Source: Phormidium tanganyikae FI6-MK23
GTDB lineage: Bacteria > Cyanobacteriota > Cyanobacteriia > Leptolyngbyales > Leptolyngbyaceae
Reading direction: 5' to 3'
Assembly: GCA_019359175.1 (NCBI GenBank)
Contig: JAHHHU010000002.1
Span: forward strand, 124,001-188,000
DNA length: 64,000 nt
In this document: in pieces, positions 50,167 to 54,478 of the stretch
How positions within the stretch are numbered: the first letter of the stretch is position 1
Layout of the letters: each line of letters opens with the position of its first letter
Position numbers and translations under genes: made by a program
Notes under the pieces: model-generated
Told to the model about the DNA's origin: nothing
The model's database searches: none
What the model saw: only the letters and a program-made list of their open reading frames with translations

Positions 50167-52806
50167 TTACGAAATCGCGCCCCGCACTAAGACGACGGTG
50201 CAATCACAGCGCCGCGCGATCGCTTCAGGAATATTCCCCTGAATGACTTGTTGCAAAAAGCCCTCACGAGTCGCACCCAACACGATCACATCACACTGAT
50301 CTTTCTGTGCCAAATCGATCACCGCATCTGAAACCGAATCCGCACAAACAGGCATCAATTCCACCGGACACGCTAATCGATCGTTTAAAAATTTCATCGA
50401 TTCATTCAGCGAATTGGGATCAGGGAGATCGCGATGTGGTTGGTGAATCTGACACAGACGAATTTCTGGAGAGTTCGATAACTGCGCGAGAGCAGGCATC
50501 AACCGAATCGCTTGACGAGAATTTGGCCCGCCTGCTGTCGGAATCAACCAGCGATCGAATGGAATTTCTGTTTCCATCTCCGCCCCAAATTTCACCAGCA
50601 CAACATCGCAGCCCGCCTGCCGAATCATCGTATCGACCACATTCCCAAAAATCCGTCCCGGCGTAGAAGTCTCGCCATTCCAGCCCATGATAATGACATC
50701 AATCCGTTGCTCTTTGATCGTCTCTAGAATCGCTTGAGCAATGTCATGGGTGACGCGGACTTGTGTATGAACTGAAATTTTCCACTCTTTACCCAAATGA
50801 ACCGCTTTCTTGAGAAGTTTTCGGCTCACCGCCGTTGAAACCGCAGTTTCGGCAGGCGTTCGATGTCGCGCGATCGGAATCACCTGCAAGCATTCCAATT
50901 CATATTCTCGATCGTGTGCGATCGCCGCTGCCATTTGTAACAATCGTCCTGCGGTTTGTGGATTCGCGATCGGCACTAAGACCCGACCTTTTCCCGTTTC
51001 CGGTGCGCGAGTTTGATACACCACGTAAGACGGTTCCGGCTGCGGGCCAACTTTCGCGGCGTTTGTCAGTCGATCGGATTCGGCTCGAATAATATCAGCG
51101 CGGGTAATAATTCCAGCTAATTTCCGGCGATCCACCACAGGCAATCGGCTAATCTTGTAGCGATTTAATAAATACAAAACCTGGCTGAGTGGATCATCTG
51201 GATGCACCGTCACAGGTCGCGGTGTCATGATTTCGCTTAACGGTTGAGCATGATCTAGCTGACGTTCCGTAATATTCGATAAATCTGTCTCCGTCACAAT
51301 TCCGACTAGCACTCCATTATCGATCACCGGAAATCCGCGATGATGCGATCGAGAAAATGCCTGAATTGCTTCATCTAAACTAACTTGACTCGACAACGTT
51401 TCAACTCGCGGCTGCATCAAATGTTTCGCAGTCAAGCCAGAAAGTCGCGTTTCTATCTCCGGATTTGCCTGTAAATGAATCCCTCGATATTCCAGTAAAT
51501 GCTTATAAATCGATCCGCTAAACATACTCTCTGCAACCAGATAAGCCGTCACTGAACCAATCATTAATGGCAACACAAGATTGAAATCTGCGGTCATCTC
51601 GAACACAATGACGATCGCAGTAATCGGACCACGAGTCACCGCACTAAAAAACGCCCCCATTCCTGTAAGCGCCGCTGTAGTCGTCAAGGCTTCACTCATA
51701 TCTAAACCGAGTGGAACCCCCGCAGTCTGCAAACTCTGAGCCGCGAAGCTAACCAAATACCCCAACGCCGACCCCAAAATCAGCGAAGGTGCAAACAATC
51801 CACCCGGCGCACCCGACCCAAACGCGACCAGCGTCAAAACAAACTTCGTAATAAAAATGACCGCAGTAATTCGCCAGCCAAATTCACTCGTAATCCAAAC
51901 TTCTTGTAAGCTCGCACTCCCTCGCAGCGCATCTGGAAGAATCGCGATCGCTAATCCAGACATCCCTCCTGCAAACGCAATCCGCAGCGGCAAACTCCAC
52001 TTCAATACTTTGCCGTTAATCTTCAAGCTCAACAGAATTCCCCGGACAAACAGCGATCCCAACAGCCCCGCCAGCACTCCTACCACTAAAAAGATCGGAA
52101 TTGCCTGAAGATTAAAACTCGTCATAATCTCCAACGAGTTCGGGCTACCGTTAAATCCCTGTCCTCCCAACAATCGCGAAACGACTGCACCGACAAACGA
52201 TGCCAAGATCGCTGTTCCCAATGTCAGCCCAGAAACATCTTGTAAAAGTTCTTCCACCACAAATAAAACACCCGCGATCGGCGCATTAAATCCCGCCGCC
52301 AATCCCGCCGCCGCTCCCGCTGCAATCAACTGCCGACGATGCACCGGAGAAGTCGGAACCCAATCACTCAACTGGGCAGCGATCGCGGCTCCAATCTGTA
52401 CTGTCGGCCCTTGCCGCCCCAAATTCAATCCCGATCCCAACGCCAGTAAGGTCGTCGCTAATTTCGCGATCGCAACTCTCAGATTGAGCGCACTCGTCAC
52501 CCCACCCAACGCCGCTTTCACCTGCGGAATTCCGCTTCCTGCCGCTTCGGGTGCAAGCCACTCAATCAACAAACCGATTAATAATCCCGCCAGGATTCCG
52601 ATCGTAGGTAACGCAATCCAAGCGGGATAAATTATTGCTGTTTGAAGTCGCCAGTGACTCAGCCAGCCCACACTCTGCTTCAGTGCGACCGCTGCTAGTC
52701 CCGACACAAATCCAATTAAACACGCCTCAAGAACAGCCAACTGTTTCGATGAAACCGCGCTCAGTCCAAATCTCGATCGCTTCGCGTCACGGAAGATTCG
52801 CCACAT
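50167..52806 (-). CDS. ClC chloride channel/transporter with CBS pair and two UspA domains
   Basis: An 879-residue fusion. The ClC membrane domain fills residues about 20-445, with selectivity motifs AAGSGIPQV (90-94), GRQGP (130-134) and GGLFAPSLILG. A CBS pair follows (about 460-580, LMQPRVETLSSQVSLDEAIQAF ... LSEIMTPRPVTVHPDDPLSQ, read in parts), then two UspA-like nucleotide-binding domains (about 610-740 and 745-879). The gating Glu of GKEGP transporters is Gln132 here, while the inner proton-path Glu (VVEEL, 185-186) is kept; this suggests altered gating or channel-like behaviour. The CBS and Usp parts imply control by adenine nucleotides. Confidence 0.92.
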   Translation of the reverse strand: MWRIFRDAKRSRFGLSAVSSKQLAVLEACLIGFVSGLAAVALKQSVGWLSHWRLQTAIIYPAWIALPTIGILAGLLIGLLIEWLAPEAAGSGIPQVKAALGGVTSALNLRVAIAKLATTLLALGSGLNLGRQGPTVQIGAAIAAQLSDWVPTSPVHRRQLIAAGAAAGLAAGFNAPIAGVLFVVEELLQDVSGLTLGTAILASFVGAVVSRLLGGQGFNGSPNSLEIMTSFNLQAIPIFLVVGVLAGLLGSLFVRGILLSLKINGKVLKWSLPLRIAFAGGMSGLAIAILPDALRGSASLQEVWITSEFGWRITAVIFITKFVLTLVAFGSGAPGGLFAPSLILGSALGYLVSFAAQSLQTAGVPLGLDMSEALTTTAALTGMGAFFSAVTRGPITAIVIVFEMTADFNLVLPLMIGSVTAYLVAESMFSGSIYKHLLEYRGIHLQANPEIETRLSGLTAKHLMQPRVETLSSQVSLDEAIQAFSRSHHRGFPVIDNGVLVGIVTETDLSNITERQLDHAQPLSEIMTPRPVTVHPDDPLSQVLYLLNRYKISRLPVVDRRKLAGIITRADIIRAESDRLTNAAKVGPQPEPSYVVYQTRAPETGKGRVLVPIANPQTAGRLLQMAAAIAHDREYELECLQVIPIARHRTPAETAVSTAVSRKLLKKAVHLGKEWKISVHTQVRVTHDIAQAILETIKEQRIDVIIMGWNGETSTPGRIFGNVVDTMIRQAGCDVVLVKFGAEMETEIPFDRWLIPTAGGPNSRQAIRLMPALAQLSNSPEIRLCQIHQPHRDLPDPNSLNESMKFLNDRLACPVELMPVCADSVSDAVIDLAQKDQCDVIVLGATREGFLQQVIQGNIPEAIARRCDCTVVLVRGAIS

Positions 52807-52871
52807 ACGAAGGCTCTGAGTAACGAAGATGCAAAATCATCCTAGCCGAGAGTGGAGCAATCAAAATGTTT

Positions 52872-53546
52872 CTATGCAGGAGATTGTGCTTCTGAATCGG
52901 CTGCGATCGCAGGTTGTTCGGTCGCGGGTTGCTGAACAGGTTTGATCGCAGGTGTAGATTGTCTTTCTGCCTGCATCTCTTTTTCTTGAAACAACAATCC
53001 ACCCAAATGCACGATCGACAATCCCAACGCCGCTAACGAAACCACATAGCTATGCAGCGTATACAAATGCGCCACCGTCAACGTTCCAACCGCTCCGCCC
53101 GTAATAATGTCACGCAATGTCGCACCGATAAACGGAATTGCTTCGATCGTTCCAAGCTCGATTTTCAGTCTCCAGAATCCAAGCTGATTCCAGCTAAGAA
53201 TCATCGCCGTCCAGCTTAAGCCGATCGCGCTCAAGGTGAACAAAATCCCACTAATCCAAGCCGTCAACCAACTCCGACGGAACCGCTCCCCCAAAAACAT
53301 CACCACAATTTGCACCAGCCCCAACACAATCACAAAATTGCCTGACAGATTGTGCAATGTGTGAACCAACCATCCAAAAGGTACTGCCGTATCAATCTGT
53401 TGAAGCGAGTCATACGCACCGCCAGCGGTCGGGACGTAGTAAAACGCGATCAAAATTCCAGAAGTAGCAGCCAGCAATGTAAGCGTAAGGATGGAAACGG
53501 CAAGAACGGTCGATAGTCGTCGCAGGATAAAGGCGGGATTAAGCAT
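52872..53546 (-). CDS. Cytochrome b6-like membrane protein with altered haem ligation
   Basis: A 224-residue protein homologous to the N-terminal four-helix part of cytochrome b/b6. Helix B has LHNLSGNFVIVLGLVQ, with His65 at the first haem-ligand site, but Gln79 where the second His (+14) is expected. Helix D keeps both His, 15 apart (His165 in LYTLHSYVV and His180 in LSIVHLG). The b_p-type pair (65/165) is therefore complete while the b_n-type pair lacks one ligand. The C-terminal 35 residues are a Pro/Gln/Ala tail. It is not the photosynthetic petB, which is far more conserved and lacks such a tail. It lies 65 nt upstream of the ClC gene. Confidence 0.82.
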   Translation of the reverse strand: MLNPAFILRRLSTVLAVSILTLTLLAATSGILIAFYYVPTAGGAYDSLQQIDTAVPFGWLVHTLHNLSGNFVIVLGLVQIVVMFLGERFRRSWLTAWISGILFTLSAIGLSWTAMILSWNQLGFWRLKIELGTIEAIPFIGATLRDIITGGAVGTLTVAHLYTLHSYVVSLAALGLSIVHLGGLLFQEKEMQAERQSTPAIKPVQQPATEQPAIAADSEAQSPA

Positions 53547-53755
53547 GACTCGACTCAGTAATGAATACTTTGTGAATTTCCGTTAAGTGAATTCTAACGA
53601 AATTCTTCACTTTTAGAAATAATTCTTAATTTCTTTGATTAAGAACTGCGATCTGTTCTCAGAATATGATCTCTCGATCGACTCCAACTCTGTCTAAGCG
53701 CGGAATCTCAAACGAACACGATAAAATGATTGCCTGAAGCTTTGAGAACAAAACC

Positions 53756-54478
53756 TTGCCTACTCTTGGTGTCAACATCGACCACATCGCAACCATCCGC
53801 CAAGCTCGCCGCACCGTTGAGCCTGATCCTGTTGCCGCTGCCGTCCTCGCCGAACTCGCGGGAGCCGATGGCATCACCGTCCACCTCCGCGAAGATCGTC
53901 GCCACATTCAAGACCACGATGTTCAACTGCTGCGGCAAACTGTTCGCACCCATTTGAATCTAGAGATGGCTGCAACCGATGAAATGGTGTCGATCGCGCT
54001 TGATCTCAAGCCCGATTACGTCACGCTCGTCCCCGAAAAACGCGAGGAAGTCACCACCGAAGGCGGACTCGACATCGCTGGACAACTCGATCGCATGACC
54101 GAAGTGGTCAGCACGTTACAAAACTCCGGAATTCCCGTCAGTTTATTCATCGATGCCGACCAAGAACAAATCGAAGCCTCGGCAACAGCAGGCGCAAGAT
54201 TCATCGAACTGCACACCGGACAATACGCCGGATCGTATTCCGAAGAAGGACAAGCCAAAGAACTAGAAATTCTCGCGCAAGGATGCGAACTGGCGATCGC
54301 TGCCGGACTCCGCATCAACGCCGGACACGGTTTAACTTATTGGAATGTTCAATCGATCGCGCGGCTCCCCGGCATGGAAGAATTGAATATTGGGCACACG
54401 ATCATTAGTCGCGCCGTCCTCGTTGGATTAGAACGAGCGGTAAGAGAAATGAAACAAGCCATTCGCGGAGAACTTTAA
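53756..54478 (+). CDS. pdxJ: Pyridoxine 5'-phosphate synthase PdxJ
   Basis: A 240-residue TIM-barrel enzyme that joins 1-deoxyxylulose-5-phosphate and 3-amino-2-oxopropyl phosphate to make pyridoxine 5'-phosphate (vitamin B6). Motifs: [17 protein letters not shown] at the N-terminus, [44 protein letters not shown], and [13 protein letters not shown], ending [11 protein letters not shown]. The start is TTG; no ATG gives the conserved N-terminus. Confidence 0.96.

Follow-up and report, generated by a model that had tools for sequence, protein, structure and literature searches.

In Phormidium tanganyikae FI6-MK23, we have identified a cytochrome b6-like protein in which Gln (Gln79) takes the place of the His residue that serves as one of the two n-side haem ligands in PetB, and His is absent from this position throughout the family of this protein. 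Judging from the sequences compared here, the change in the haem site is a real family trait on a known fold, unexplained but selectively kept. The explanation that we tentatively prefer, taken as a whole, is that His180 still binds the n-side haem and Gln79 acts as a weak or distal residue there, that the protein serves membrane redox or ligand sensing, and that it belongs to a dedicated family of cytochrome b6 paralogues in cyanobacteria standing outside the b6f complex. A cytochrome b in which a ligand has been replaced naturally and conserved for long would reveal the purpose of the ligand and would provide a wild-type counterpart to the ligand mutants made in laboratories; if the protein is indeed a sensor, a membrane signalling protein would have evolved from a subunit of the Q-cycle.

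The cytochrome b6-like protein and its fold

The gene was found in a stretch of 64,000 nucleotides, which is called the window below. The features referred to in this study are as follows.

52872..53546, minus strand: cytochrome b6-like gene, 224 amino acids with an ATG start, four-helix N-terminal fold of cytochrome b (open reading frame; PF00033, 80.3 bits; AlphaFold model)
53352..53354, minus strand: codon of His65, p-side haem ligand in helix B (His in 112/112 members)
53310..53312, minus strand: codon of Gln79 (CAA), at an n-side ligand position occupied by His in PetB (Gln 101, Glu 8, Asp 2, Asn 1, His 0 of 112)
53157..53171, minus strand: codons 126-130 in the cd1 helix, with the family-invariant Arg126 and Glu130 (112/112 each; Ala and Val in 10/10 PetB)
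53067..53069, minus strand: codon of His160 (His in 105/112, Arg in 7; Arg in PetB)
53052..53054, minus strand: codon of His165, p-side haem ligand in helix D (His in 109/112, Asn in 3)
53007..53009, minus strand: codon of His180, the remaining n-side ligand in helix D (His in 111/112, Asn in 1)
52875..52982, minus strand: Pro/Gln/Ala-rich C-terminal tail, residues ~189-224, unconserved (alignment; block pLDDT of 54-59 from residue 201)
50167..52806, minus strand: neighbouring gene for a putative ClC-type chloride channel carrying CBS domains (open reading frame; name from reading the sequence)

The protein of the window exceeded the curated cut-off of the Pfam family Cytochrome_B (PF00033; 27.2 bits) with its score of 80.3 bits, and its top five relatives by sequence among solved structures were all cytochrome b6, with cytochromes b of bc complexes ranking next. 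An AlphaFold model built from 30 members of the family (mean pLDDT of 83.8) matched ten b6 chains with Z scores of 16.2-19.3 over 186-189 residues, and b6 chains also occupied the first ten ranks when this model was searched with Foldseek. With the cytochromes b of bc1 and other bacterial complexes, the protein shares the PF00033 fold and the p-side ligands (the best bc1 chain gave a Z score of 17.2), whereas all four His residues are kept in 17 of the 18 outgroup rows.

When the protein was aligned with PetB, to which it is ~28-33% identical, His65 and His165 fell on the columns of the p-side ligands and His180 on a column of the n-side ligands, as the original prediction from this DNA had proposed. 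The column of Gln79 is His in 10/10 PetB and also in 16/16 PetB of a second sample, confirming the proposal that Gln replaces the n-side partner of His180. The Pro/Gln/Ala tail described at the same time is present in the window protein but is not conserved in the family. A scan of positions 52700-53900 for promoters and terminators found none.

Distribution of the family

In a class-wide even sample, the b6-like gene was detected in 76 of 388 genomes (E values up to 1e-35), which represent 44 of 159 genera. All 42 genomes of the same taxonomic family gave some match, and 21 of them possess the b6-like gene at E < 1e-60. When these 42 genomes were searched to an E value of 0.001, the matches were separated into two score classes, namely at least 232 bits and at most 100 bits, with none between; a few partial records aside, the low-score class is PetB except for a single fragment (30.8 bits) that derives from a broken copy. 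A search of a phylum sample with PF00033 also gave a further copy in 13 of the 49 matching genomes of the class, each at 81-94 bits versus ~269-286 bits for PetB. Named genomes were furthermore scanned with six peptide patterns, and 59 of the resulting 61 loci are titled as cyanobacteria; one locus titled as Gracilibacteria and one titled as Chloroflexaceae are probably binning errors. Named strains with b6-like members include Chlorogloeopsis fritschii PCC 6912 and Calothrix sp. PCC 7103. Two genomes of the class sample (G155 and G193) were equipped with two copies of the gene.

For the comparison of residues, we used a set of 112 members, i.e., distinct proteins of at least 185 amino acids that scored at least 120 bits against the window protein, obtained from 164 loci. 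Four truncated rows (L023, L089, L091, and L163, of which L023 and L163 are one gene) and a low-scoring fragment (L093) were left out of this set.

No close relative of the gene was found in 72,556 plasmid records, where all of the 34 matching records were below 60% identity and the annotated ones are named cytochrome b, or in 50,697 phage records, where the single match is a cytochrome b fragment. With no such relatives in plasmids and phages and with an unremarkable G+C content near the gene (0.48-0.52), a mobile origin was rejected. The phage record concerned has a Helicobacter host, and the fragment stands at its end (PQ159902.1:36281-36733), where it is probably host DNA.

Conservation of the haem sites

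Position 79 is occupied by Gln in 101 of the 112 members, by Glu in eight, by Asp in two, and by Asn in one, but never by His. One of the six patterns in the scan of named genomes (LVQIVVMF) includes Gln79 itself, while the genome searches use no peptide pattern; among the members from the genome searches only (75 counted, with one further distinct member uncounted), the residue is Gln in 68, Glu in five, Asp in two, and His in none, and His180 and His165 are found in 75/75 and 73/75, respectively. The original prediction had recommended examining whether Gln is conserved in homologues and had taken His in most of them as the sign of an isolated mutation or decay; what we found is no His in either the 112 members or the 75 from pattern-free searches. 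On a family tree calculated with the ligand columns removed, position 79 changed seven times, always within Gln/Glu/Asp/Asn, while positions 165 and 180 changed twice and once, respectively. His is a single base change away from the Gln codons yet is absent from the family; indeed, the codons for Gln79 are CAA in 75 and CAG in 26 members and are intermixed, suggesting that the residue is held while its codon drifts.

The other ligands are His65 (112/112), His165 (109, with Asn in three), and His180 (111, with Asn in one). Asn at the position of the p-side ligand His165 was observed in L056, L109, and L115, one of which also has Asp79.

The packing of each haem in cytochromes b involves two Gly residues, one in helix A and one in helix C. 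The p-side pair in the b6-like family is composed of Gly30 (112/112) and Ala/Ser114 (Ala in 107, Ser in five), and the n-side pair is composed of Ala/Ser16 (Ala in 67, Ser in 45) and Gly100 (105/112). One Gly is replaced with a small residue at each site, including the p-side one, where both His ligands are present; the n-side pocket would therefore be little more spoiled than the p-side pocket. Given the conservation of His180 (111/112), Gly100 (105/112), and Ala/Ser16 (112/112), we lean toward a retained n-side cofactor over a single haem. The protein had been predicted to be either a one-haem or a Gln/His-ligated relative of cytochrome b6; the altered ligand stands as a trait of the whole family, but the conserved pocket leans against the one-haem version. 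As a separate case, a cytochrome b-like protein in a genome of the phylum outside the class (L210_OG16; G448:C2:117548-118087) has lost both n-side ligands, with Arg and Tyr in their places, and keeps the p-side pair, and its helix-C Gly is Ala, in contrast to the pocket of the b6-like family.

A protein binding the p-side haem only, in which Gln79 and His180 would serve packing or contribute a hydrogen bond, or else bind a quinone or a metal, is the foremost of the alternatives, and we consider it somewhat doubtful. One n-side His is missing, and the n-side Gly position in helix A is Ala/Ser, both of which would be consistent with this alternative; furthermore, a bc1 complex mutated at a b_H ligand (H212N) in Rhodobacter capsulatus is called a haem b_H knock-out in the passages on this mutant (PMC4807273). 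Nonetheless, the p-side Gly position in helix C is also Ala/Ser (112/112) even though both His ligands are kept there, so that small-residue changes do not argue for haem loss, and His180 is conserved like the p-side ligands (111 vs 109 and 112 of 112).

The laboratory mutants do not point in one direction. According to the passages on H198N, in which a b_L ligand of R. capsulatus bc1 is mutated, the haem is high-spin with a high potential and transfers no electrons at a useful rate (PMC8138165), and the Lys revertant of H212N is described as having a functional low-spin haem (PMC4807273). With a high-spin haem on the one side and a knock-out and its Lys revertant on the other, both outcomes appear possible for Gln. 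As described in PMC8138165, H198N resembles the b6-like family in that one haem-ligand His is replaced with an amide side chain within a cytochrome b bundle but differs in being a laboratory change to Asn on the p-side, while the change in the family is natural, on the n-side, and mostly to Gln.

That His180 is held without its partner would favour a rebuilt, perhaps high-spin, n-side haem rather than an empty site. In the explanation that we prefer, the p-side haem would be an ordinary bis-His haem, and His180 would still bind the n-side haem, at the sixth position of which Gln79 would be placed weakly or at a distance. The resulting n-side haem, near the cytoplasmic face, would be high-spin or easily opened and have a raised potential. 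Such a haem would conduct electrons poorly across the membrane but might store an electron or offer a binding site for a small ligand or quinone. The likeliest role would hence be to sense redox state or a ligand at the membrane, or else to act as a small auxiliary redox switch linked to quinone.

Genomic neighbourhood

The ClC-like gene lies 65 bp downstream of the b6-like gene on the same strand, but a gene of this type adjoins the b6-like gene in just 4 of 109 loci and is probably not part of a conserved system with it. The other neighbour in the window is pdxJ, which is divergent (name from reading the sequence). The predicted absence of an adjacent Rieske or c-type partner holds by motif, as no CxxCH, Rieske-like, or PadR motif was found in open reading frames of at least 60 amino acids in the 64-kb window. 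It also extends to other genomes, in which a search for redox partners had been suggested: clustering of the neighbours in 109 loci revealed neither a conserved Rieske or c-type partner nor a conserved redox operon, and an operon with redox partners was rejected as an explanation.

Neighbours were named by Pfam on cluster representatives, and all of the counts are lower bounds, about half of the 109 loci having only ~4 kb of flank. Two neighbours are commonest, with 38 loci each, namely an antiporter-like gene in convergent orientation and a gene on the opposite strand, the representative of which has no Pfam match, and a gene for an alpha/beta hydrolase is located upstream on the same strand in 31 (immediately adjacent in 29). 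Mainly in filamentous forms, the neighbours include a c-type cytochrome gene (20 loci, in 19 of which it is upstream), plastocyanin (17 loci), and psbV (13 loci). An open reading frame with CxxCH is present within six genes in 23/109 loci, mostly in the psbV/c-type cytochrome cluster of these filamentous forms. Other CxxCH open reading frames are found nearby in L038, L133, and L134, and isolated open reading frames with a Rieske-like motif are six genes upstream in L056 and four genes downstream in L075.

Alternatively, Gln79 might itself ligate the haem at the sixth position (a His/Gln pair, or His/Glu in some members), making the protein a low-spin, two-haem conduit that carries electrons through the membrane to a partner, which we regard as improbable. 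A His/Lys haem is described as functional in the bc1 bundle (PMC4807273), and psbV, plastocyanin, and the c-type cytochrome, which are 2.5-5 kb upstream in some filamentous cyanobacteria (part of L046-L084), would be candidate carriers. All substitutes at position 79 (Gln, Glu, Asp, and Asn) furthermore bear side chains with an O or N donor. Gln is, however, a weak haem ligand; also, those carriers are placed past an opposite-strand gene and are not near in most of the 109 loci, where no redox partner is conserved.

Relation to PetB and the b6f complex

The genome of P. tanganyikae also has a normal petB (272.3 bits) on contig C4, while the window is on contig C75. The sole match to petD (PF00032) in this genome is ~0.3 kb from the normal petB and not at the b6-like gene. 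The PEWY motif belongs to subunit IV, and with a single match to subunit IV in the genome, the b6-like protein has no PEWY partner.

In terms of its resemblance to PetB, the b6-like protein has the same fold, the p-side pair of His, the n-side His in helix D, and the 15-residue spacing between the two His residues of helix D. It differs in having Gln, Glu, Asp, or Asn across the family for the n-side His of helix B, in lacking the Cys for haem c_n, in having Arg126 and Glu130 on cd1 and His160 for Arg, and, at the window, in having no PetD partner of its own. The Cys for haem c_n (Cys35 of cytochrome b6) is found in 9 of 10 PetB rows, with a gap in the remaining one; the corresponding residue is Val in the window protein and Ile in 65, Leu in 29, Val in 16, Phe in one, and Thr in one of the 112 members, with Cys in none. 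The columns of Arg126 and Glu130 presumably face the quinol pocket by bc1 numbering (strobilurin-resistance region), and the two residues would be expected to block or rebuild this pocket. With no Cys for haem c_n, invariant Arg126/Glu130, and no second match to subunit IV, a role in the Q-cycle appears unlikely as far as can be seen from the sequences.

It is also conceivable that the protein is an alternative PetB subunit exchanged into the b6f complex, or an assembly or regulatory protein of this complex, considering that its fold is the same as that of PetB and its length is similar; we nonetheless regard this alternative as very improbable, given that the sole PetD match of the genome is beside PetB, that the haem c_n column is Ile, Leu, or Val in 110/112 members and never Cys, and that Arg126 and Glu130 are invariant in place of Ala and Val in PetB.

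Selection and phylogeny

The median NG86 dN/dS value was 0.10 (117 usable of 118 pairs at 80-97% identity), which shows at the level of coding sequences that the b6-like family is under purifying selection. In a tree of 30 family members, 16 PetB, and 18 other cytochromes b, the family forms a single clade (support of 100/100) on a long stem of 2.45 changes per column. The grouping of PetB and the b6-like family against the outgroups (92/84) is not firm, with an unsettled bootstrap and several long outgroup branches; the family either arose by duplication of PetB or is older. Five of the six plasmid-borne outgroup rows adjoin a Rieske gene, and the sixth has no annotation.

A copy in the genome G012 (G012:C1:3725245-3725724; L023/L163) is interrupted by an in-frame TAG, its N-terminal part being a separate piece, and is likely to be a pseudogene in this one genome. 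This copy and the other truncated or fragmentary rows (five rows left out in all) suggest that some lineages may tolerate loss of the gene. While this in-frame stop and the short fragments in a few records would suit an isolated mutation or a decaying copy of petB, such an origin is hardly credible and was rejected in view of the presence in 76/388 genomes, the lack of His at position 79 in all 112 members, the dN/dS of ~0.10, and the 100/100 clade on its long stem.

Comparison with known sensors

Among the best literature matches, mostly outside subscription journals and judged by title and the opening of the abstract, no cyanobacterial cytochrome b6 paralogue with a ligand variation was found. 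In a 2026 review on cyanobacterial redox signalling, the passages on plastoquinone sensing present the histidine kinase Hik2 and KaiA as sensors of the plastoquinone pool and do not mention a cytochrome b6 paralogue (PMC13421787). A sensor role for the b6-like family is considered to be plausible.

Fused proteins and their link to PadR

The upstream neighbours include a gene for PadR in 13 of the 109 loci, immediately adjacent in 12 of them, and its representative matches PF03551 with 62.3 bits. In this PadR-linked sub-lineage, which includes Acaryochloris, Hyella, and Mastigocoleus, the b6-like protein is extended at its N-terminus by ~60-105 amino acids; such fused rows account for 14 of the 112 members and correspond to one change on the family tree. 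The extension is predicted to form three helices (block pLDDT of 77-87 over residues 1-80), the third of which could by its length reach into the membrane, although the model of the fused protein is poor over the cytochrome part (mean pLDDT of 56.4). The b6-like gene of the window itself has neither the three-helix module nor PadR.

When a profile of the module was searched in the 388 genomes, it retrieved 12 fused proteins and five weak matches (31-35 bits), the latter in five genomes from one other genus. Ten of the 12 fused loci have a PadR motif upstream on the same strand, as do all five loci where the profile matches another protein. Three of these five (L224, L226, and L228 out of L224-L228) were read, and the module there ends proteins of 152-277 amino acids with no cytochrome b. 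From this, the module would appear to be a companion of PadR genes more than of cytochrome b. No signalling family and no HAAS match was found for the module in Pfam and NCBIfam up to an E value of 10, no GxP motif was noticed by eye in 11 module sequences, and the comparison with solved structures gave weak matches only (best E value of 0.062), mainly to designed helical proteins.

A helical domain that is paired with PadR and fused to multi-transmembrane sensor domains has been proposed as an alternative to two-component systems, according to the account of the HAAS-PadR dyad in PMC11237479. The fused sub-lineage resembles this dyad, as outlined there, in having a three-helix module N-terminal to a multi-transmembrane domain, usually with PadR upstream, but differs in that its module has no match to HAAS or another signalling family and no GxP and is absent at the window gene (PMC11237479). 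If the association of the module with PadR is read in the same way, sensing would fall to the membrane part that resembles b6. The fused sub-lineage, which the original prediction lacked, changes the functional reading of the b6-like family; by this analogy, it suggests membrane redox or ligand sensing in the sub-lineage with PadR, which is a minority of the loci, and the same role may be extended to the window copy only by inference.

In the explanation with a retained n-side haem, the N-terminal n-side helix would relay the state of this haem to partners, and the partner in the fused sub-lineage would be the three-helix module beside the PadR transcription factor. A bolder form of this idea is that the family represents a class of b6-derived transmembrane haem sensors, in which the n-side His/Gln haem reads the redox state of plastoquinone or a gas at the cytoplasmic face and uses the N-terminal helix for signalling, with a PadR repressor as the direct recipient in some lineages; this form we consider unlikely. 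As an example of the module apart from cytochrome b, the sequence in L224 is DEWQHWISDMMESR, and a further small open reading frame is placed between the module protein and PadR in this locus.
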